Source of the DNA: Wolfiporia cocos | Lineage: Eukaryota > Basidiomycota > Agaricomycetes > Polyporales > Phaeolaceae | DNA length: 64,000 bases | Direction: 5' to 3' | Assembly: GCA_029448655.1 (NCBI GenBank) | Contig: JACCLO010000023.1 | Coordinates: 124,001-188,000 of the forward strand | In this document: positions 31,156 through 61,176 of the stretch, piece by piece | How the letters are laid out: every line of letters begins with the position of its first letter | How positions within the stretch are numbered: position 1 is the first letter of the stretch | Notes under the pieces: model-generated | Database searches by the model: none | What the model was told of the DNA's origin: nothing | Seen by the model: the letters and a program-made list of their open reading frames with translations, nothing else | Made by a program: the position numbers and the translations under genes

Positions 31156-32048
31156 GCTCCTCTACATGCTACTGCGAAGACAAGGGGCTCCCTTACCATT
31201 CGGTGCATTGTTACTACTATTTTACTACGCGAACTCTGCTCGTGTTGGGCACTAATCTGTTCATTATCTGCCTGCAATACGTGGTTAGCAGACAGTATAC
31301 TTCTTGCCAATTCATTCGAGCGCCTTGTATTGGTACATCATGCGATTCTTCGTTTACGTCGGAGACAAGGACAGATTGTTGCCCTGTGCTGACACTTCAT
31401 ATCACTACACAGTAGAACACATCGCAACGAGTGTCCATGTCACAAGCAGAAGCCGAGACCACGACCTAACAATGCCCTGACACGTCTTCACATCGCCTGG
31501 CTCAATCTCCACACCCTTATAGTCTCATGCCAAATATACATGAGTGGAGTCTAATGGTCAGAATGCGCACTAATTGCCTCAAACACAACGATAGCACTCA
31601 CACATCTATCGCATCGATCACGATGCCAGGGGCCAGTACTTCAGTGGCCGTACATCCAAATGTGGCACCAAAAGATCGCGATTACCATGCCTCTTTCCCA
31701 GGCCTATCTCTGATAGATTCATGTCCTCCATTACCATCTAGTGCCCCCACTCATCTTGAGCGGCGGATCTTCTGTGAGTGCATTCCTGCTTCTATCTTCG
31801 CTGGTTATTGAACGGTCAAACATATATGTGAAATAATAGGGCTAAAGAACGAGGAGTGGAGCAGGGAATAAGATCTGACATATTATGCGACAGCGGTGAC
31901 TATTATGATTATGAGGCAAAAATGTACGTGACAAGACTCTTTCGGCTGATGAGAAGTAAAATTGTAGTGCAGTACGTTATGCATGCTTTAGAGTATAGTG
32001 AATGAATCTTCCCGATTTCCTCTTTCATGGGCAAGAAGTTTATCCGAG
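31156..32048. other. Non-coding spacer with a short duplicate of 41.9 kb
   Basis: About 31640-31690 resembles 41865-41910 (shared CCAAATGTGGC / CCCAATGTGGC context). This suggests the duplication seen at 30.6 kb originally extended this far. No gene is supported. Confidence 0.45.
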
Positions 32049-32870
32049 GTAGAGTTTCAGTCAATTATCTTAATCTGCCAACTGCCCTTCGCTTAAGAAA
32101 TCGCAGTTGCGAGCTAGGTTTGCACGCAGTAGTGTTGCCGAAGTTCAGTTCGGTTCAGGTTCAGGGGGGTCTAGGGCTGAACCCAGAACCGAACCGACTG
32201 CAGGGAGCCTGAACCTGAACCTGGACTGAACCTGGTGAACTGGTTCATCAGGTTCGGTTCATGGTTCGAACTAGGTTCGAACCGCTTGCTTCTATAGAGT
32301 GTAAAAATAATAATTTAGACACCAACTTCATGCACCTTTCTATGTATACCAATTGCTCTCTATTGCCTACCTCATTCCCGGCACTATTGAACCCACTAAA
32401 GTAATCACACTTCAAGTTCTGCAGTGCCTCCATTTGGTGTCTATTGGGCTGAATTCCAAAGTGGCTCTTAATCTTGATTAGAGTGGTAAACATAAATTTT
32501 AGATGCACAATAATCACTCAAGGCAGCCATCTTGAGCAGTTCAGTAATCAGAGTTTATGATTGTGAATTAGCCTGAGGCAAACCTCAATAACAAACCATT
32601 CTTAGACAACACTGTATATAATCTAGGAAAGCATGGTGATCCCAGCATGGGGTTGAGCCCTTGCCATATTGGGAGACTAGAGTATATGAGTGCTGGTGCT
32701 TGCTATGGTGAAGCCAGCTATCCATAACTTACTGCAACAACACTATAGCAAAGATGGCAAGAACATAATTGTAATTGATGCTTATCCACCAGTGGCTACA
32801 CAGAATATGTTAATGCTATGTGGTTCAAGGTTCAGTCCAGTTCAAACCTGGTTCAAGGGTACCCATGACC

Positions 32871-34119
32871 TGTTACGGTCCGTACAATTTCGCATGTCTT
32901 TGACGCCTCACTGGAGAGGAGGACTTAGCGTTCAACCGCATCGCTGTGTGTTTATTTCCAGGGTTCTCTGTTCAACCAGCGACCCCGTTTCATGTACAAC
33001 AGCCCTAAACCCATAGTCCCATAGTGTATCAGGTTCTAGTTGATATCTTGTGTATAACCACAGAGCTTCTGCGTTTCAGCCACTGTTGCACTCAACCGCA
33101 ACGTTTCAGCTTAGTTATCGTAGCGTACTAACCTTATGGACTTAGTGGTAGCAGTACCAAGGACACTATGACCTGTTACGGGTCGAATACCCGTTCGTAT
33201 ATTCGAATCGCGAATATAGATCGTTCTTCTGCACGTAGGCACGTCGCCGTATGCAAGGCAAATACTCGTTAGATGCCTTCGGGTCCTAAGTGAAGTCCTT
33301 AGGAGATTGGTTAATATCCAATACACGTTAGAGGATATAATCTGTTCAAGTGCGAGTCTGATAGAATATAAGACTCGCCTAAGTCCGAGAAGTCAGTGTG
33401 CACTTCGAGGACTTAGTCGTTCGGTTGCTCGAGTGAGAAATACTGAGCGTAGTTTCCTACGTTTGAGAACGAGTATAAGACTTCTTGTTTATACAACAAG
33501 GTCGAGCTGAAGAGCCTCGACAGTAGGTACATTAGTTTATATACTACGTTGGGTTTCAGGGGTCAAGTCCGTCCCAGATGTCACCGATACTATCTACGCT
33601 ATAGTACCAAACGTTTGATAGGTATGTAGTGATATACCTGAGACGATAGATAGGAATGATGGCGGTTGAACGCCATCTGTTAGCTAACAAACGATGAACA
33701 TGAAACGGTGGCAGAGTTGGATCTGCCAAAGATGAAACGCGCCCTATAGACTAGTACAACTGGGGGTACGCCCAGTAGAGTCACGAGTAGCCAGGGGAGT
33801 TGGTTGTGCAACAAGTCCCTGTATCGTATTCGCCCAGTGGTGAGTTCTGCCGATATTCGAAAAATCAAAATAACCGTAACATGACCCCGATTACAGAATC
33901 GTAGTATAAAAACCCTGCTGTAAATACTGGTCGAGTTCCTCAGCTCGACCTTGTTGAATTACAAGGATCCTATACTCGTTCTCAAAGGCTTGAACCAATA
34001 AAGCCTGCAGCTAGTATATCGACGCTCAACTCTGCGGAGTCTGACGAATAGTGCGCTATTCAACACACTGAGTAACTCGACTTAGTTATTTCAGCTGAAC
34101 GGATATTCGATCCGTAACA
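32871..34119. mobile_element. Solo-LTR-like insertion in the hAT element
   Basis: It begins TGTTACGG and ends CCGTAACA, flanked by TGACC at 32866-32870 and 34120-34124. It contains a TATAAAA near 33905 and AATAAA near 33999 on plus, as expected in an LTR. It interrupts the GGTTCA-rich hAT subterminal region. No coding domain is present. Confidence 0.65.
33174..33881 (-). mobile_element. Second solo LTR, nested and inverted
   Basis: It has the same TGTTACGG...CCGTAACA ends and the same flanking TGACC (33169-33173, 33882-33886). An internal block around 33463-33522 is the inverted match of 33930-33990 in the enclosing LTR (CTCGACCTTGTTG motif). It is therefore the same family in opposite orientation. 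Confidence 0.6.
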
Positions 34120-34902
34120 TGACCCCCCTGAACCAAGAACTGAACCTTGATGTCCTACCCTGAACTGGACCTGGACTGAACCTGAACCTAGGTTCAGTTC
34201 AGGTGGTTCAGGTTCTGAACCTTGGTTCTGAACTGAACTTCAGCAACACTAGCATGCAGATTAATCTGCTAGCTGCGGCAGATTAATCTACTGTGACAAT
34301 AAAATGGTACATTCAGGATTTGAACCAAGGATCTTAGCACAGATCAGAATAAGAGCATCGCAGCGTAATTAGCCAGCTGAGCCATACTGGCGACAGTTAC
34401 CTGTGACCAATCAAAATATATATAACGCAAATTTTACACACAATTTCCGCAAATCATCAAGGCAACTAACTGCTACAACAAGCATAAAGAAATCAATGAT
34501 AGTGGTAGCTTGATTTACCATGCTTGACCTGGAGCAACTCACCATGAGAAAGCTGAATACACTGGAATCACAGGTCTTTAGAGGCAGATTCATTTGTATT
34601 TGTGTTATGGAAGATGTTAAACTGCGAAAATGAAGTTTACAAAATACTCTATATATTGCTTAAAATGGGGCAAACACTGATTGCACTGTAGCTCAGTTGG
34701 CTAACGTATGCTGCGATGCTCTTATTCTGATCTGTGCTAAGGTCCTTGGTTTGAATCCTGAATGTACCATTTTATTGTCACATTAGATTAATCTGCCGCA
34801 GCTAGCAGATTAATCTGCGTGCAAACCTAGCTCGCAACTGCGATTTCTTAAGCGAAGGGCAGTTGGCAGATCAAGATAATTGACTGAAGTCCCTCATCCG
34901 AG

Positions 34903-35737
34903 ACCATACAAAAGTCTGATGTCCCAAGGGCCGGTTGATCACTGTAGCACCAGACGCAATATACAGTATGCATGATGTAGGATAGCATGAAAAATTCGTC
35001 CCAAACAAACACTGCTCAATTTCGATGCATTGTAGTATTGACAACATTCATGCAAAAACGACTGTAATATAAGAGGTGTATGTCCTCGTGAATCACGCGT
35101 GCACAGAGCGTAGCTTTGGAGGAGGCCTGAAGCTCCGAGGCTTTCGATGGCACTTCCACAAAAGGACCTCGGCCTTATCCTACATATATAAGTCTGACCC
35201 AAAAGGCCTTTGTTCTGTGTGCACAAAAATCCGCTCAAAATAGCACCAGGTATTGAACTTCTAATAGTCGGAGATAATCGAAAAAAACTCTCATAGATTG
35301 TTCGAGTCATATCGACCACCCCAGGTATATTAGACTATTCAACGCTACCGTCATCCTCTTACTCACTCTCAGCGATGTCTATCCTATCAGCAACAACCTC
35401 TGTTACAGCCCTGAGCCCTTGCTGGCACTGAGATATACTCTGCATACTCTGCCTTTCCAGCAAAAGCTCGATAATGTGCTTGATCTGGTCCGCAAGGCCC
35501 TATAGAACCTACAAGGCAGCAAAGCACATCGCCACCTGAGAGTAGTGTCGGACCTGCCATCATTTGTGAATCAGTGCCTGGTACTATGTGCGCAGACCTG
35601 TTGAATGTTAAACTTCACTCTTCGATTACTCGTATCGCCACAGTGTTAAATTTGCGTCCAACAACGGATGACTCTCTGGCAGCAATTCTCAGTTCCAGAC
35701 CTTATACCTGTGGCACCTGCAGCCCAGACATGTCCGG
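34903..35737. other. Non-coding spacer
   Basis: No frame with family features is visible. I see nothing to annotate beyond flanks of the neighbouring elements. Confidence 0.45.
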
Positions 35738-36422
35738 GCGGAGTGCGAAAAACATATTGCAGGCACCACTGGTATAAGGTCTGGTGGGTTTTGGTAGGGC
35801 AGGTGTAGGTGACCCCATCTCATGACCGCAATACCAACGCCTACAGTGCGCAATGCAGTCATACTCAATGAGCTCACAAACGCGAAGCCTAGCTGGCCAT
35901 GTCTGTAATGTACTGTACCATCTTATAACTCCAAAACATAATGTCTGAGCTTGACGATGATGTCAACGACTGTGTTCTCCGTCTCATCAGCCAGTACCAA
36001 ATGGCATAGTTTTGCTCGCTCCTAAGTGCAGGACCAGTGCCTCAGTGGCATCAAGCCACCAGTCATAAGCACTCTGTCAGGCCCAATACTTTCTCAGTGA
36101 TTAAGCGGCATGTATTTGCAGACGCGTATTGACGATTTTTTCAGCCACAATGTGCACTGCATTGAGCATATCCGTGAATTTGCTAATACCGCGATTGAAC
36201 AGACTCCCGTGAGTTTACTTAGATGACATTATGACAGTCTATCAAAAAGACCAGACCCGATACAGGTAGCACGTAAGTACAATTGTGAGGATGCATACGC
36301 ACACCGCATCGCGCTGTACGTGCCAGCGTCGCAGTCACGAGACGGGGTCACCTACACCCACCCTGCCGAAACCCACCAGACCTTGTACAGTGGCTGTTTG
36401 CAATATGTTTTTCGCACTCCGC
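35738..36422. mobile_element. Non-autonomous element with long inverted repeats of about 100 bases
   Basis: The left arm 35738-35835 and right arm 36325-36422 are inverted copies. They begin GCGGAGTGCGAAAAACATAT and contain GGTCTGGTGGGTTT and GTGTAGGTGACCCC. The internal sequence has no transposase. I could not find a convincing target duplication, so the exact ends and superfamily are open. Confidence 0.65.
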
Positions 36423-36499
36423 TTGGGTTCTCCCGAGCAGCAGCAGCCATGTGCAAGGGCTGGGGACAAGACTACAATTGTACGTAATAGCCAGCTCGA

Positions 36500-37189
36500 G
36501 AGGGACTTCAGTCACAGAGATTAATTTGCAAACTGCCTTTCATTAGTGCTGTGCAGTACCTGATGTGCATATCAATCCGGCATAGATTAATCTACCATTA
36601 TGATAAAATAAACTGCCAACTGGGGGATTGAACCTTGAACCCCGGAGTCTGGCAACCTGGCGTATAGACAAGCCTACCACTACACCACTGCACAATGCAT
36701 TCATTGTTGTATTGTTGCATGTTTAATATCATGTGCCGACACCAAAGAAATTTTCAATCAACCAAAAACTGAGATTAATTTATTGACTGGCTTCGAAAAG
36801 TTGGTCAGATAGAGCACTAACTACACTGAAATTACACTGCAGTCATAGTTCCACATTCCACATAGAGCTAATGAGTCCACGAGCTGAAAAATTGATGAGA
36901 TTATTGTGTCAGGACAGAGTTTTGTAGAGCAGAAATTATCCGATATATATTTCAGATCCTCATCTTGTGATTAGCCTTTGTAGTTTAGTGGTTATATTGT
37001 GTGTCTATTGCTTGTGTTGCTATGGTCGAAAGTTAGATACCGGCTCATGTAGTTTTTAGAAATTCAAGCCAGCTTGATCTGCTCAATGCAGATTGATCTG
37101 ATTTCTCCAGTGCTAGCAGAGCACATCGGTAACTGCAAAGCACTAACGAAAGGCAGTTGGTAAATCAATTTGAGTGACTGAAACTCTAC
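36500..37189 (-). mobile_element. Outward-facing tRNA-arm element, copy B
   Basis: It starts GAGGGACTTCAG and ends CTGAAACTCTAC, the reverse orientation of copies A and C. The flanks are AGCTCGA at 36493-36499 and 37190-37196. The left arm on minus carries TGTAGTGGTAG and GGTTCAATCCC. The right arm on plus carries TTTGTAGTTTAGTGG and a degenerate B-box-like ATGGTCGAAAGTTAG. Palindromes TAGATTAATCTA and CAGATTGATCTG occur in the arms. Length is 690 bases. Confidence 0.75.
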
Positions 37190-37690
37190 AGCTCGAAGAC
37201 GGAAGTCTACTGTGTTAGTACGGAGGTGTGCTGCGCTCTCAGGAAGTTCTGTGCACGTGTACACTATGGTCGGAGATGGGAATCCAAGGGCTGCATCTGC
37301 CCGCATGCGAACCCTGCCACGATCAAACCTCGAGCAATATTTGGTTGAGATGTCATCATCTGGGTTGGAGAATTTCTATTGGCATCAGGATCAGACAGGA
37401 TCCTATGCTGAAGCAAACGCCCTCGGCACTTTCAGAAGCCTAGTACCTTTTTCCGGTGCCTCTGAAGTTTCTATATACTATCGATGACACCGTGGCACCC
37501 AAATTGATATATTATGGTGCAAATGCCAGACTGTGCCACACTCATCTTTCCACATTTCCTCAGTGCCGTTGCTTGGACCAAAGGACCACTCCCTAAGTTG
37601 TTCTCAGTTAGATGATGATGCTTTATATATCAGGACTTGGGATATTCTCACACTACATGCAGGTTTACCTGACATTACAGTCTGAAGTAG

Positions 37691-40600
37691 GTGAAATATG
37701 GTCACAATATATCCGATCAGCCAGCAGATGCGGTCATCGACATGACTGGCACCAGTAATGACATTAACCATGGATTTACTGGTGAGTACGTTGTCCCTTA
37801 CTCCATTTGGTTGTGTCTCAATTATATCTGGAGACATGTATGGCTTGTGCCAGAAAGGACAACAAATCCTACATATGCTGTCAGTCACTTTGAACTTGTA
37901 GTGCAGGGCATCAGCAATGCTTCGCTCTGGGACTTGGCAAAAGGTGCAGGTGGCAAGTACCACTACCTGCTTCCACTGAACAATGCTGGTCAAAGGGGCA
38001 AGATTATAAGTGTTCATTTATTAAGATCACCTATTGAAATTCGCACAGTTCCTCCAAGATATAGCGGAATGACTGGTAACATCAACAAGGACTGTGGTGG
38101 ACAATACCATTACCTCATTTGGACCACAACATCCGTGATACCATCTCCCATGCTCTATGTCTCTGGGTTTGATGTATGTTCTAATTGCTGACTGGATGCT
38201 GGATGGCAAGATATCACAGGCTGATGTCACCTTCTCAGGTGGTTTATGGAAAAGAGCCGTCTGAGGAGCCTAAAGATACAGTTGCCGAGATAAAGGGAGG
38301 AGGAAACAATATCAATACATCCTCCAAGGGAAGGTATGGTCTACTCATCCAACAACGTAGAGTTTCAGTGCCACAGATGCATCTTTAGAGACACTGCAGA
38401 TGCATCTGGGGCACTTTAAGTTATCGGAATTAGGTGCCCGTTAGTACCAAAATAAAATGTCACATTCCGGGAATCGAACCAGGAACCATGAGACCTCAGC
38501 GAAACAGCAACTGAAACCACTCAGCTAAAGCAGTTAGTGAAAGGAAGATCTTGTGCAAATATATAGTCAGTACTTGATATAATAACGGTTGTAAAAAAAA
38601 TTTAACATTCTGCTCATATGTCAGTAAGCTCAAGTGTTCCTTGAACTCAGAATGCATCTCTTTATTAATGTATCCCACAACCCATATGTATCTGCAATGA
38701 GGTAAAGATGCTGTCATAAATTACCTACAGGGCAATATGGAACATTGCACTAAGGTGTGACTTGACAATTAACAGCTACGGCAATGAAAGGATATTAAAT
38801 GGATCATATTGACAAGTATGTGACTGGATACTACGACCATTTGGCGAAGTGGTACAGGTTGCGACTTCGCTGATCCCAGGTCAAGTGTTCGAACCCTGCA
38901 CAGGTATTTCTTGCGCAGATGCATCTTATTTTATTCAGATGCATCTAAGCAGCACGCTTCGGCATTAAGATTGCTTAGAGAGCCCCAGATGCATCTGCGG
39001 TGTCTCTAAAGACGCATCTCCGGCACTGAAGTCCCTCCAACAACAGGTTCAATAAATGTCTTAGCAGTATTCCAGATATGTGTGGATCGTCCCACAATTC
39101 TCTACCGACATAGATTTTGCATGCACTGCATTTCAGGTCGTCATTCAAAACAGCTACGATAGCAAGTGCTGGGATCTTGCTTATGGCGCGGGTGGGGCCT
39201 ATCAGTATTTACTCCCTTTCAGTGACATCGGTATCGCTCCAAAGATTGTGAACATTGAACTTCTACGCTCGTCATCTCCTGTCAATATGCCTCCAACCGG
39301 CTATAGCGGGATGACAGCAAACATAAATCAAGACCTAAGCGATGATTGCCTATACTTGATTTGGCAAACAACAGATGTGATTCTTCCGGCAAGGTATATC
39401 TCTGGTTTCAAAGTAAGTCCTTTCCAGTGTTGACATTCTTCTCACAAAGCTGAAAGCCCCTCATAGATCTGCTATGGAGACATGTTGTCTCATGAACCGT
39501 GTAACGCGGTCACCGAAATTCACGGCAAAGGCAACAATGTCGACATGGGTTTCGGCGGCAGGTATTTAACCCTGTTCTAGCGTATACCGTTGCATACTCA
39601 TGGGGACGATCATCATGTAGTCATGTCTGGATCATTCCAGATTATACCACTGAAGCCCTCATTGCAGCTACCAGCTTCATGGTCATCATCCCGGGCAGTA
39701 GCGACTCCGAGCATGAGGATCCTGGTAATGGTGCAGCTGAGCTGTACCGTCACCTCAAACAAACTCCACACCAGACCACCCGGACAAGATATCTTCGATT
39801 CGCCTTCTGAGTTCGACAACCGCAGTGTCTCAACCACCGGATAGATATGCCGGTATAACCTCTAACCTCAACACAAGGAGAGGAGATCTAAACCGCTCTC
39901 ATCTGTACGTTATATGGGAAACTGGTGGGTCTAATCATTAACTATTCTCTACCTCTCCCCAAGTTGATGACATGCAGTCTTGGCTCCTGAGGTAACCGGC
40001 GAGTGGATGGGAGACTATGTCATGATTGGAGGCTGGGATATCTCGGGGCACAATCTTGACTACCATCCACAGCTCGCTGGGAATCTGGATGGTATTGTAG
40101 AATTAGCGTCGCGCAAGTCTACCTCATCCTTCTCTGCGTTCAACATATCAGGAAGATTCAAGCTATGGACCTCCTTAAAGCCGTTTATGTGGATCAAATG
40201 CCCTGAAAATGCTTTGTTTATCCCCGTCAAGTATCCTGGATGGGTATTTGTTCAAGGTCAGCGCTTGGGTTGCCATTCACTCGGGGAGCATGATCCTCAT
40301 TATATTCCCCGCAGGAAATGACTCTCCTGGTAACAATATTGAGCAGGTTACTGGCCAAAATTGCCCTCGGTCTATAATCGACTACATTAAACAGCTGACA
40401 CAAGACGCCATGGGCGTACCGTCATCCAAAGACCCTTCTCCTTAGGCAATGGTAACCTATGGGTACAATGCCGGGAGTGGCGAGGTGGATCCCCAGACTA
40501 GCACGCATGACTCATGGAGTAGAGAGGGGACTTGCCCCGACGTCGAGATTAACAGTTCTGGGGAGTAAGCCCCAGAACATCGCAGCTTAAGTACATGGGA

Positions 40601-42294: not shown

Positions 42295-43081
42295 TCCATA
42301 ATATAATGGGAGCTCGCGCCGTAGGCGCTCACGTGTCGCTAGCGTGCAGCTAGCGTGTCGCTCGCGTGTCGCTCGCGTTTTGCGCACATGGCGAGCACGT
42401 TTGCCGCGTGGCGTCCATGCGCGTCGTTGATCCTCCTCCCATTAGATGGGGCGCCTGCCATCCGCGGAGTTGGCCGGTGGATTCCCACGCCCGGCGCCTG
42501 CAAGGTGCGCGCGCTGTTCGTGCCCCGCACCACGGGGATTCGTGCCCCATGCCACGGGGATTTGTGCCCCACACCACGGGGATTCGTGCCCCACACCACG
42601 GGGATTCGTGGCCCATTCCATGGGGGTTTGTGGCCCATGCCACAGGGATTTGTGTCCTGTGGCATGGGGATTTTGTAATGTAAATACCCCACACCACGGG
42701 GATTTGTACCCCGTGCCACGGGGATTCGTGCCCTACACCACGGGGATTTTTGGCCCATGCCATGGGGGTTTGTGCCCCATGCCACGGGGATTCGTGCCCC
42801 ATGCCACAGGGATTTGTGTCCTGTGGCATGGGGATTTTGTAATATAAATACTCCACACCACAGGGGTCTGTACCCTGTGCCACAGGTATTTGCACCCCAA
42901 TGCCACAGGGGTGAATTCCCACACCCAGAGCCTGCAAGGCATGCGTGCCAGTTACAGATTCTACAAGCAAAGCGACAACGATACCGAGCATCAGCGAGGT
43001 GGAGGAGTGGCTGAGTAGGCAGAGGCTAAAATATATTCCTAAGACATAACATTTGTGGCGAAGCCACAGGTAATTAAGCTA
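42295..43081 (+). mobile_element. Helitron-like unit 1 of a tandem array
   Basis: The 5' end is TC, followed by ATAATGGGAGCTCGCG. The 3' end has the hairpin GTGGCGAAGCCAC about 11 bases before a terminal CTA. A body of GC-rich TCGCTCGCG repeats, a minisatellite, and the shared block GAGGTGGAGGAGTGGCTGAG lie between. Helitrons start TC, end in a hairpin plus CTRR, and leave no target duplication. Confidence 0.45.
42518..42905 (+). repeat. 22-bp minisatellite with about 165-bp higher-order repeat
   Basis: The unit is close to GTGCCCCACACCACGGGGAT(TC), repeated about a dozen times with drift. A marker (GTCCTGTGGCATGGGG then TTTTGTAAT) recurs at about 42653 and 42818, giving a higher-order period. 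Open frames across it are artefacts of the repeat. Confidence 0.85.
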
Positions 43082-59536: not shown

Positions 59537-61176
59537 ATGAGCTGCTTTCCACCAGGCATATACTACAGCGAACAGGATGAGCCTGCCTCAGCCTACGCTG
59601 ATACACAACATTACGACAGCCACGAGAGAGAGGGATCGATGTCCGGCTCCGAGAACGGCTCCACCTATGCTTACTTGCCAGGCCTCAAAAGCGGGTCTGA
59701 ACTGGATGGTCAGTGGACCGTGCTATGTTCAACACTCTTGTAACGTTATACTGCAGTGGATCCACATATGGCGTTGACGTCTCAGACGCTGAATGCAGAT
59801 GGGACGCCCAAGCGTCCCATGAATGCATTTATGATCTTCGCGCGGAAGAGAAGGCCAGAGATATCTGCGGCCAACCAGATGATGCGCACAGGGGACGTCA
59901 GCAAAATCCTAAGTAGAGAGTGGAACACGATGAGTATGGTATGTGGCATGTATACTCCTCCTGAAAATCGTTAATGATCTGCATACAGTCAGAGAAGAAG
60001 TTCTATCTCGACCAGGCAAAGAAGCTGAAAGATAACTTCAACTCCAAATACCCCGACTATGTTTATCGCCGTCGACCGAACAACTCGCGCAGAAAACGAA
60101 AGCCTGATCCGGATCACGATGCGACGCCAGAGCACCCATCCGCCCTTGACATGGAGGATGCGATGGAGGAAATCTCTCCAATAGGCACCGATGATATTGC
60201 AATCGACTCGCAGGGATATCAGTATGGCGTTACGTCACCATATGGCGGACACTCAGACTATGCTTCGTCGCAGTCATCTAATCTTTATTCTAACACGGGA
60301 GTTCCTATTTCCCCCCGCTACGGACAGCAGCCGGCTCCTACTACCCATTCGTCTTTGCCGTACTCACTTCAGTCGATGCCAGGAGTCGTCGGAGAGCAGA
60401 GACTTCCTCCTATAGTCAACTCCAACACTATGTCCCAAGGATTCCATGGATCCTTGACGCTTGGACACTCGTCCGTTTCGTATCCTTCCTCGGAACCACC
60501 TAGCGGATCCGATCTATGGGACGGCAGTAGGACCAATGAGACGAGGACCAGTTGGCCCCTTCTCCCTGCGTTAGACACGGATTTGGCCCGCCAGAGGGCG
60601 CGTTCGTTAGCCGGTATTAAATGGTCCGACTCTCCCGAGCTTAGTTACCGCTCGTGGTCGGCAACGACACCATCGACTCCCTTCAGTAGCTCTAGTTCTT
60701 CACCCGGTCGCTCTGCCAATGCCAACGCAGCATTCCCAACCTTGACTTCGCCGTTCGTCCCAAATCCTTCGCCGCCACAGTCGGCCGCAGATTCGCTGCA
60801 GTCGCCAAGTTCGCGACAGAACATCGCGCCGGAGTATCACTCCCCTTCCTCTCCGCTGGCACATCGCGGCATGGCTTCCTCGGGAAGGAACGGTGATGGT
60901 CAGCAACATCGTGGGTTTACTCAATCTAACGTCCTTCCCCTGCCCTCGGCAAATCCGTACCAATCCCACACTGTCTCTAACCAATTTGACCACATTCATT
61001 CACAATATCGCACAACACCTGGCTCTCCCTCGCTTCCGCCACCGCTTTTCCCTATTACGACGATGTCACCTCAATCAACCTCGCCGGCGGCTACATCATC
61101 GTCTAGCTCGGCGTCGGGACCTGGCTCGGCGTCTAACCTGGGATTTTGGGAAAGGCAGCCGTTCGATGGACGCTAG
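59537..61176 (+). CDS. HMG-box transcription factor
   Basis: Exons 59537-59708, 59757-59938 and 59989-61176 give 513 residues. The HMG box spans about 75-142. It starts PKRPMNAFMIFARKRRPE and continues LSREWNTMS, KKFYLDQAKKLKDNFNSKYP and YVYRRRP, ending in a basic RRKRKPD tail. The RPMNAFM form is the sequence-specific (SOX/MATA) class, as in fungal mating and development regulators such as Prf1-like factors. The remaining 370 residues are Ser/Pro/Gln-rich and likely activation or disordered sequence. The intron at 59939-59988 falls inside the box. Target genes cannot be inferred. No mating-type homeodomain or pheromone-receptor gene is in this window. Confidence 0.9.

Follow-up and report, generated by a model that had tools for sequence, protein, structure and literature searches.

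Transposon-like elements of Wolfiporia cocos with paired, outward-facing pol III-type promoter units

The window analysed here is a stretch of 64,000 nucleotides of the Wolfiporia cocos genome (C16:124001-188000), and it holds three copies, A, B and C, of a high-copy family of short elements that carry two outward-facing promoter units of the RNA polymerase III (pol III) type. We conclude with high confidence that the members of this family are non-autonomous cut-and-paste DNA transposons, and we are almost as sure that their pol III-type units are real and constrained. Pol III promoters have been taken as the mark of short interspersed elements (SINEs), which move through RNA; here they are paired and face outward in elements resembling DNA transposons, and this arrangement spans three subfamilies that are otherwise alike in little. 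The subfamilies are named T1 (that of copy A), T2 (copy C) and T3 (copy B). The search space was the whole genome, 64,431,438 bp in 76 contigs; paired ends were analysed on C1, C2 and C3 to 1.73 Mb, together 10.3 Mb or ~16% of the genome.

Ends, target duplications and subfamilies

A sequence-only reading of the window had delimited the three copies by asymmetric termini and flanking 7-mers. The coordinates, termini and 7-mers were all reproduced, with an exact 7-bp duplication around each copy and copy B on the minus strand. That reading had also named a genome search with the 12-base termini as a check, and the search returned a high-copy family: the GTAGAGTTTCAG terminus has 534 exact matches (268 + 266) in 64.4 Mb, compared with 11 (7 + 4) for the reversed pattern, and the GAGGGACTTCAG terminus has 564 (274 + 290), compared with 7 (2 + 5). 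The elements are ~590 to 720 bp long, with the non-equivalent ends GTAGAGT-TTCAG and GAGGGAC-TTCAG, referred to below as the GTA and GAG ends.

When each exact end in the 10.3 Mb was joined to the nearest closing end, the 195 ends gave 65 pairs lying 500 to 900 bp apart; 63 were mixed, two were GTA/GTA and none was GAG/GAG. Further counts were made on 57 sampled copies, defined as distinct loci with one GTA and one GAG end, each end with at most one mismatch. The sample is non-random, and 29 of its loci (L040-L068) were chosen by resemblance to copy A; the first 30 GAG ends on C1 give subfamily proportions free of this selection, namely 20 of T1, 7 of T2 and 3 of T3. An exact 7-mer duplication flanks 41 of the 57 mixed-end copies, an exact 8-mer flanks one, and 15 have neither, whereas flanks drawn from different copies share a 7-mer in 0.06% of cases. 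With up to two mismatches allowed in 7, a duplication of 7 or 8 bp is present in 55 of the 57 but in none of five like-ended copies (two GTA/GTA, three GAG/GAG; Fisher p = 3e-6), for which recombination between elements is the best reading. The proposal that the head-to-head pair is what moves thus stands, and both kinds of end appear to be needed together for insertion. A single arm with a duplication of its own was seen at none of the loci examined, and no genome-wide search for one was made.

Target sites of the 41 copies with an exact 7-mer show a weak and symmetric bias, CY-N7-RG, the symmetry being that expected of a dimeric transposase or integrase. An empty site was also found, in one perfect case: in L075 a T2 element hosts a T1 element flanked by an 8-bp duplication, and the flanks of the T1 element minus one duplicate are identical to T2 copy L032 over 72 of 72 nt. 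The duplications of mixed-end copies, the symmetric target bias and this empty site are the marks of a DNA transposon.

T1, T2 and T3 have common ends and a common plan but little common sequence. In all three the inverted repeat begins at base 8 and the outer 7 bp of the two ends differ. The inverted arms of about 200 bp previously ascribed to every copy are a property of A-type copies (bases 8-212 against 521-718, 92% identity; ~205 bp in T1), while in B and C, and in T2 and T3 generally, only 57 to 62 bp near the ends are inverted repeats. T1 arms with other outer 7-mers, that is, without G at both collar positions 1 and 4, number only two genome-wide, so the 7-bp collars belong to the element.

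The T1 interior lies in one orientation relative to the outer 7 bp in 38 copies and in the opposite orientation in 11, and the consensuses of the two orientations match each other in reverse over bases 8-710 (99.3%). On a central-region tree of these 49 copies, parsimony places eight orientation changes, at least four of them on well-supported branches, with bootstrap unsettled; label shuffles gave as few changes in 20 of 500 trials. The repeated flips presumably arise through recombination between the arms. Despite them, the duplication-bearing copies retain one end of each kind; since interiors turn freely while two different ends are strictly needed, the requirement for both can be read from the sequence itself.

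Palindromes of the form AGATNNATCT occur at least twice in all 57 copies, with a mean of 3.9 compared to 0.02 in shuffles, which reach two or more in 0.09% of cases. They are often paired, 19 to 23 bp apart, and lie outside the promoter units; we regard them as likely transposase sites.

Divergent copies indicate some depth to the family. L079 and L017 are T1-like but only ~71 to 73% identical to A, so the family, though recently active, is also old. Among 40 mostly unpaired ends viewed over 80 bp, 31 fit a known subfamily over at least 71 bp and 9 do not. Two GAG ends, L136 (C1:4856448-4856527) and L156 (C3:1249597-1249676), have in common the 20 bp GAGGGACTTCAGAGCTCAAG, beyond which they diverge and are unlike each other and unlike all three subfamilies; this 20-mer has two exact and two one-mismatch places genome-wide.

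Outward promoter units

Promoters were scored with a matrix built from 40 of the genome's own tRNA genes (49 tRNA matches were found), and the cut-off was the 99% level of shuffled sequence. Outward A-box/B-box pairs exceed it in both halves of all 57 copies, and inward pairs do so in none, which bears out at the level of sequence the outward promoters first noted in copies A, B and C. Twelve of 14 representative arms have scores between 21 and 33, the span covered by the host tRNA genes of the matrix. In 109 of 114 arms a TTTT run lies no more than 45 nt beyond the B box, compared to 24% in shuffles, and five arms have no TTTT before the terminus. Each arm is predicted to hold a short unit of ~85 to 110 nt from start to stop. 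In the consensus arms that have one, the T-run falls 92 to 133 bp short of the terminus, so that a normal transcript would exclude the end of the element.

The units are not tRNAs. ARAGORN at default settings found none in the window and none in seven consensus or representative elements, with some low-scoring matches at relaxed settings. Five distinct promoter heads are present, one in T1 (in both arms), two in T2 and two in T3; the left and right heads of B, and likewise those of C, are different sequences, and no head aligns well with one from another subfamily. The paired outward layout is therefore not a mere by-product of the inverted repeat. No clear parent was found for the heads among 40 of the 49 host tRNA matches; 5 of 14 heads score slightly over the best of 60 box-preserving shuffles against these matches, which makes a distant tRNA origin conceivable.

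The boxes are kept between diverged copies. Between T1 and L079, 41 of 44 positions in the four boxes agree, compared with 440 of 647 in the remainder, a contrast equalled by random blocks in 170 of 20,000 draws; for T1 and L017 the values are 41 of 44 and 425 of 647, equalled in 35 of 20,000. The sequence between the boxes in T1 is kept no better than the remainder (62 of 95 and 56 of 95, respectively). Since the boxes are kept and the sequence between them is not, these alignments suggest that factor binding, rather than the RNA, is the conserved feature, and they hint that the host machinery for making tRNA may aid the survival or movement of the element.

Mechanism, alternatives and the search for a transposase

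We lean toward a full explanation in which these are DNA transposons with pol III units, mobilized by a transposase in trans, with a role for the units in chromatin. A transposase supplied in trans would bind the palindromes and cut at the ends, requiring and joining one end of each kind. TFIIIC and TFIIIB would occupy both arms and keep the chromatin of the element open and insulated, so that its ends could be reached in a genome rich in repeats. The short transcripts made by pol III might not matter in themselves. The proposal of a transposase in trans is based on the sequence evidence; the chromatin role of TFIIIC and TFIIIB on the arms, for which the box patterns are our guide, is a tentative suggestion. 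tRNA genes bound by TFIIIC and TFIIIB act as chromatin barriers, and the proposed mode of action is the same, although the present family is known from sequence alone and the cloverleaf is unconserved in its arms. It is more doubtful still, although conceivable, that this is a transposon lineage dependent on the host pol III machinery, in which paired outward TFIIIC/TFIIIB platforms are required, have been re-acquired repeatedly from different sources, and have two distinct ends joined across them for transposition.

If the boxes were needed for mobility, cut-and-paste transposition would be tied directly to pol III factors, and the family would offer a natural test of whether tRNA-gene-like sequences hold a transposon accessible; it would also distribute hundreds of divergent pol III sites across a fungal genome. 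Full-text searches of a collection of open-access papers (subscription journals, preprints and Repbase lay outside their scope) gave no account of this element design. The repeat table of a W. hoelen assembly has large unclassified classes of DNA elements and of miniature inverted-repeat transposable elements (MITEs), and the passages of that paper available to us do not describe the present family (PMC9503964).

Several observations weigh against the explanation that we favor. No transposase partner with the family ends was found in C1, C2 and C3 to 1.73 Mb, and 2 of the 57 mixed-end copies have no duplication. The scores of two of the 14 representative arms, L019 right (15) and B left (20), are lower than that of any host tRNA gene in the matrix. 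The Rfam tRNA model RF00005 has no match with E ≤ 5 in 31900-39200 and none with E ≤ 10 in 16 loci, and the predicted transcript folds are mostly no more stable than those of shuffles. In the T3 pair, L012 and B, the box signal is weak (36 of 44 compared to 391 of 600, equalled by random blocks in 856 of 20,000), and mutation bias remains an alternative to factor binding as the source of box conservation. Finally, four T in a row terminate only weakly in some fungi, hence read-through is possible for some transcripts.

Among other explanations, the frame in which the copies had first been seen, that of SINEs, would make each a pair of tRNA-derived SINEs joined head to head and retroposed as one unit. 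tRNA-derived SINEs have the tRNA-type A and B boxes that every sampled arm has here, and a tRNA-like promoter on the inner flank of each arm, whose opposite end is the terminus, fits such a pair. Yet the present family has two outward heads, ends that are fixed to the base, and a duplication of constant length (7 bp, or 8 in a single sampled copy) that is tied to one end of each kind. Nothing like a SINE 3' tail was noticed, and the T-run falls well inside the terminus; we regard this origin as extremely improbable. Plain MITEs, with the pol III-like units as passive remnants of captured tRNA-like sequence and no role, agree with the absence of Rfam tRNA matches, and non-autonomous elements commonly capture host sequence. 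Like MITEs and non-autonomous class II elements in general, the family is short, non-coding as far as read, and high in copy number, with a duplication of fixed length; with them it also has in common a precise empty site (one case), subterminal motifs, three subfamilies with common ends, and terminal inverted repeats, here from base 8. It differs in that every sampled copy contains a pair of outward pol III-type units and in that the ends, which are unlike in the outer 7 bp, are apparently both needed, and its 7-bp duplication leaves the superfamily unfixed. That five heads in three subfamilies should all face outward from both arms, with T-runs, and that the boxes should be kept above the remainder between diverged copies, makes passive remnants an unlikely account of the units.

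Should the function instead lie in the pol III transcripts, for instance in small RNAs opposing silencing or working alongside the transposase, the start and stop of a short unit in every arm would be explained; since the inter-box sequence is unconserved among the diverged T1 copies and the predicted folds are mostly unremarkable, we give this little credence. A Dada-like transposon, with the units as flanks of an older insertion into tRNA genes, has to be considered because, in the passages of one account available to us, Dada elements make 6- or 7-bp duplications, many but not all families insert into multicopy RNA genes, tRNA genes among the targets, and short flanks (6-mers) may travel along (PMC8869645). 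Duplication length, a link to tRNA genes and the short travelling flanks are points of likeness (PMC8869645), and the outer 7 bp of the present elements equal the duplication in length and are the sole part of the arm outside the inverted repeat. Dada goes into RNA genes, however, whereas the present family carries its pol III-type units internally and the targets of the 41 copies are only weakly biased and are not tRNA genes; the near-constancy of the T1 collars also speaks against it, and we think a Dada-like origin very unlikely. The outer 7 bp might nonetheless derive from an old duplication that was captured. In our preferred reading as DNA transposons with a transposase in trans, the two kinds of end have a counterpart elsewhere: Tn7 and the P element are transposons with functionally different ends, and here too one end of each kind is apparently required, although no transposase was found for the present family in the 10.3 Mb compared and its ends are otherwise inverted repeats.

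Genome-wide profile matches that might mark a partner comprise 62 rows for MULE, 129 for KDZ, 67 for Plavaka and 48 for hAT. In the 10.3 Mb, compared by eye with the lists of ends, none of the MULE, KDZ or Plavaka matches is enclosed by family ends, and the only hAT match within them is one nested in L071. The hAT duplication is 8 bp, unlike the 7 bp found in 41 of the 42 present copies with an exact duplication. Two long copies with duplications, L070 (4453 bp) and L071 (4559 bp), were rejected as partners, since they contain nested insertions: in L071 a hAT whose separate 8-bp duplication was read by eye, and in L070 an insert of no assigned identity. The 9188-bp interval L072 was rejected likewise, as it holds a Gypsy-type retrotransposon. 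One hAT match, C2:853311, sits 0.8 kb within a GAG end (C2:852505) that is T1-like for no more than its first 19 bp, and 121-bp views of the corresponding places of two sister hAT matches show no GAG end.

One MULE-domain frame recurs with equal score at 44 of the 62 listed places, nearly all on small contigs (for example C30-C33, C37-C44 and C57-C63), which suggests a tandem or unplaced array carrying a transposase.

The three copies and their surroundings

The features of the three copies are collected in Table 1. Copy A spans 2847 bp due to a nested insert; without this insert and one duplicate it measures 717 bp, the length at which the sequence-only reading had arrived. The insert is outside the family, and we take it to be hAT-like, judging by its ends. 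Its left part has at least 39 further places in the genome at 96 to 97% identity (40 of 801 candidates scored), and the part of copy A at 34252-34895 has at least 39 at 93 to 97% (40 of 530 scored). Relatives of copy B are found at no fewer than 7 full-length places at 81 to 94%, with at least 10 near-full-length places at 68 to 71% (40 of 92 scored); those of copy C include L022, L032 and L019, among others.

Table 1. Coordinates, in the window, of copies A, B and C and of the features within them
Feature	Position	Strand	Details
Copy A, subfamily T1	32049..34895	+	GTA end left, GAG end right; ATCCGAG duplication; interrupted by nested element
Nested element in A	32130..34251		Ends TAGTGTTG...CAACACTA; 8-bp duplication GCACGCAG/GCATGCAG, one mismatch
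A left pol III-like unit, outward	34301..34384	-	A box 34373-34384, B box 34316-34326, TTTT 34301-34304
A right pol III-like unit, outward	34689..34773	+	A box 34689-34700, B box 34748-34758, TTTT 34770-34773
A palindromes AGATTAATCT	34258..34289		Left pair, starts 34258 and 34280; right pair at 34785 and 34807
Copy B, subfamily T3	36500..37189	-	GAG end at low coordinate, GTA end at high; AGCTCGA duplication
B low-coordinate pol III-like unit, outward	36605..36687	-	A box 36676-36687, B box 36624-36634, TTTT 36605-36608
B high-coordinate pol III-like unit, outward	36981..37056	+	A box 36981-36992, weak B box 37031-37041, TTTT 37053-37056
B palindrome AGATTAATCT	36584..36593		Partner AGATTGATCT at 37090
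Copy C, subfamily T2	38357..39037	+	GTA end left, GAG end right; CAACAAC duplication
C left pol III-like unit, outward	38454..38527	-	A box 38516-38527, B box 38470-38480, TTTT 38454-38457
C right pol III-like unit, outward	38842..38932	+	A box 38842-38853, B box 38886-38896, TTTT 38929-38932
C palindromes AGATGCATCT	38375..38407		Left pair, starts 38375 and 38398; right at 38917, 38937 and 38987

Outside the copies, the window encodes at 59974-61173 an HMG-box protein with 100% identity to one of Wolfiporia cocos MD-104 SS10. Between A and B lies a second inverted repeat, 35711-35850 and 36310-36449, with arms of 140 nt that are 74% complementary and 459 nt apart; it is perhaps a further foldback element. 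Similar domain-like frames flank copy C (37889-38176 and 39137-39412), with no Pfam match above the cut-off, and copy C may be intronic within a gene of repeated domains. Farther along, at 42517-42890, are GC-rich tandem repeats; they have higher-order periods besides their 22-bp unit and form an open, repetitive reading frame.

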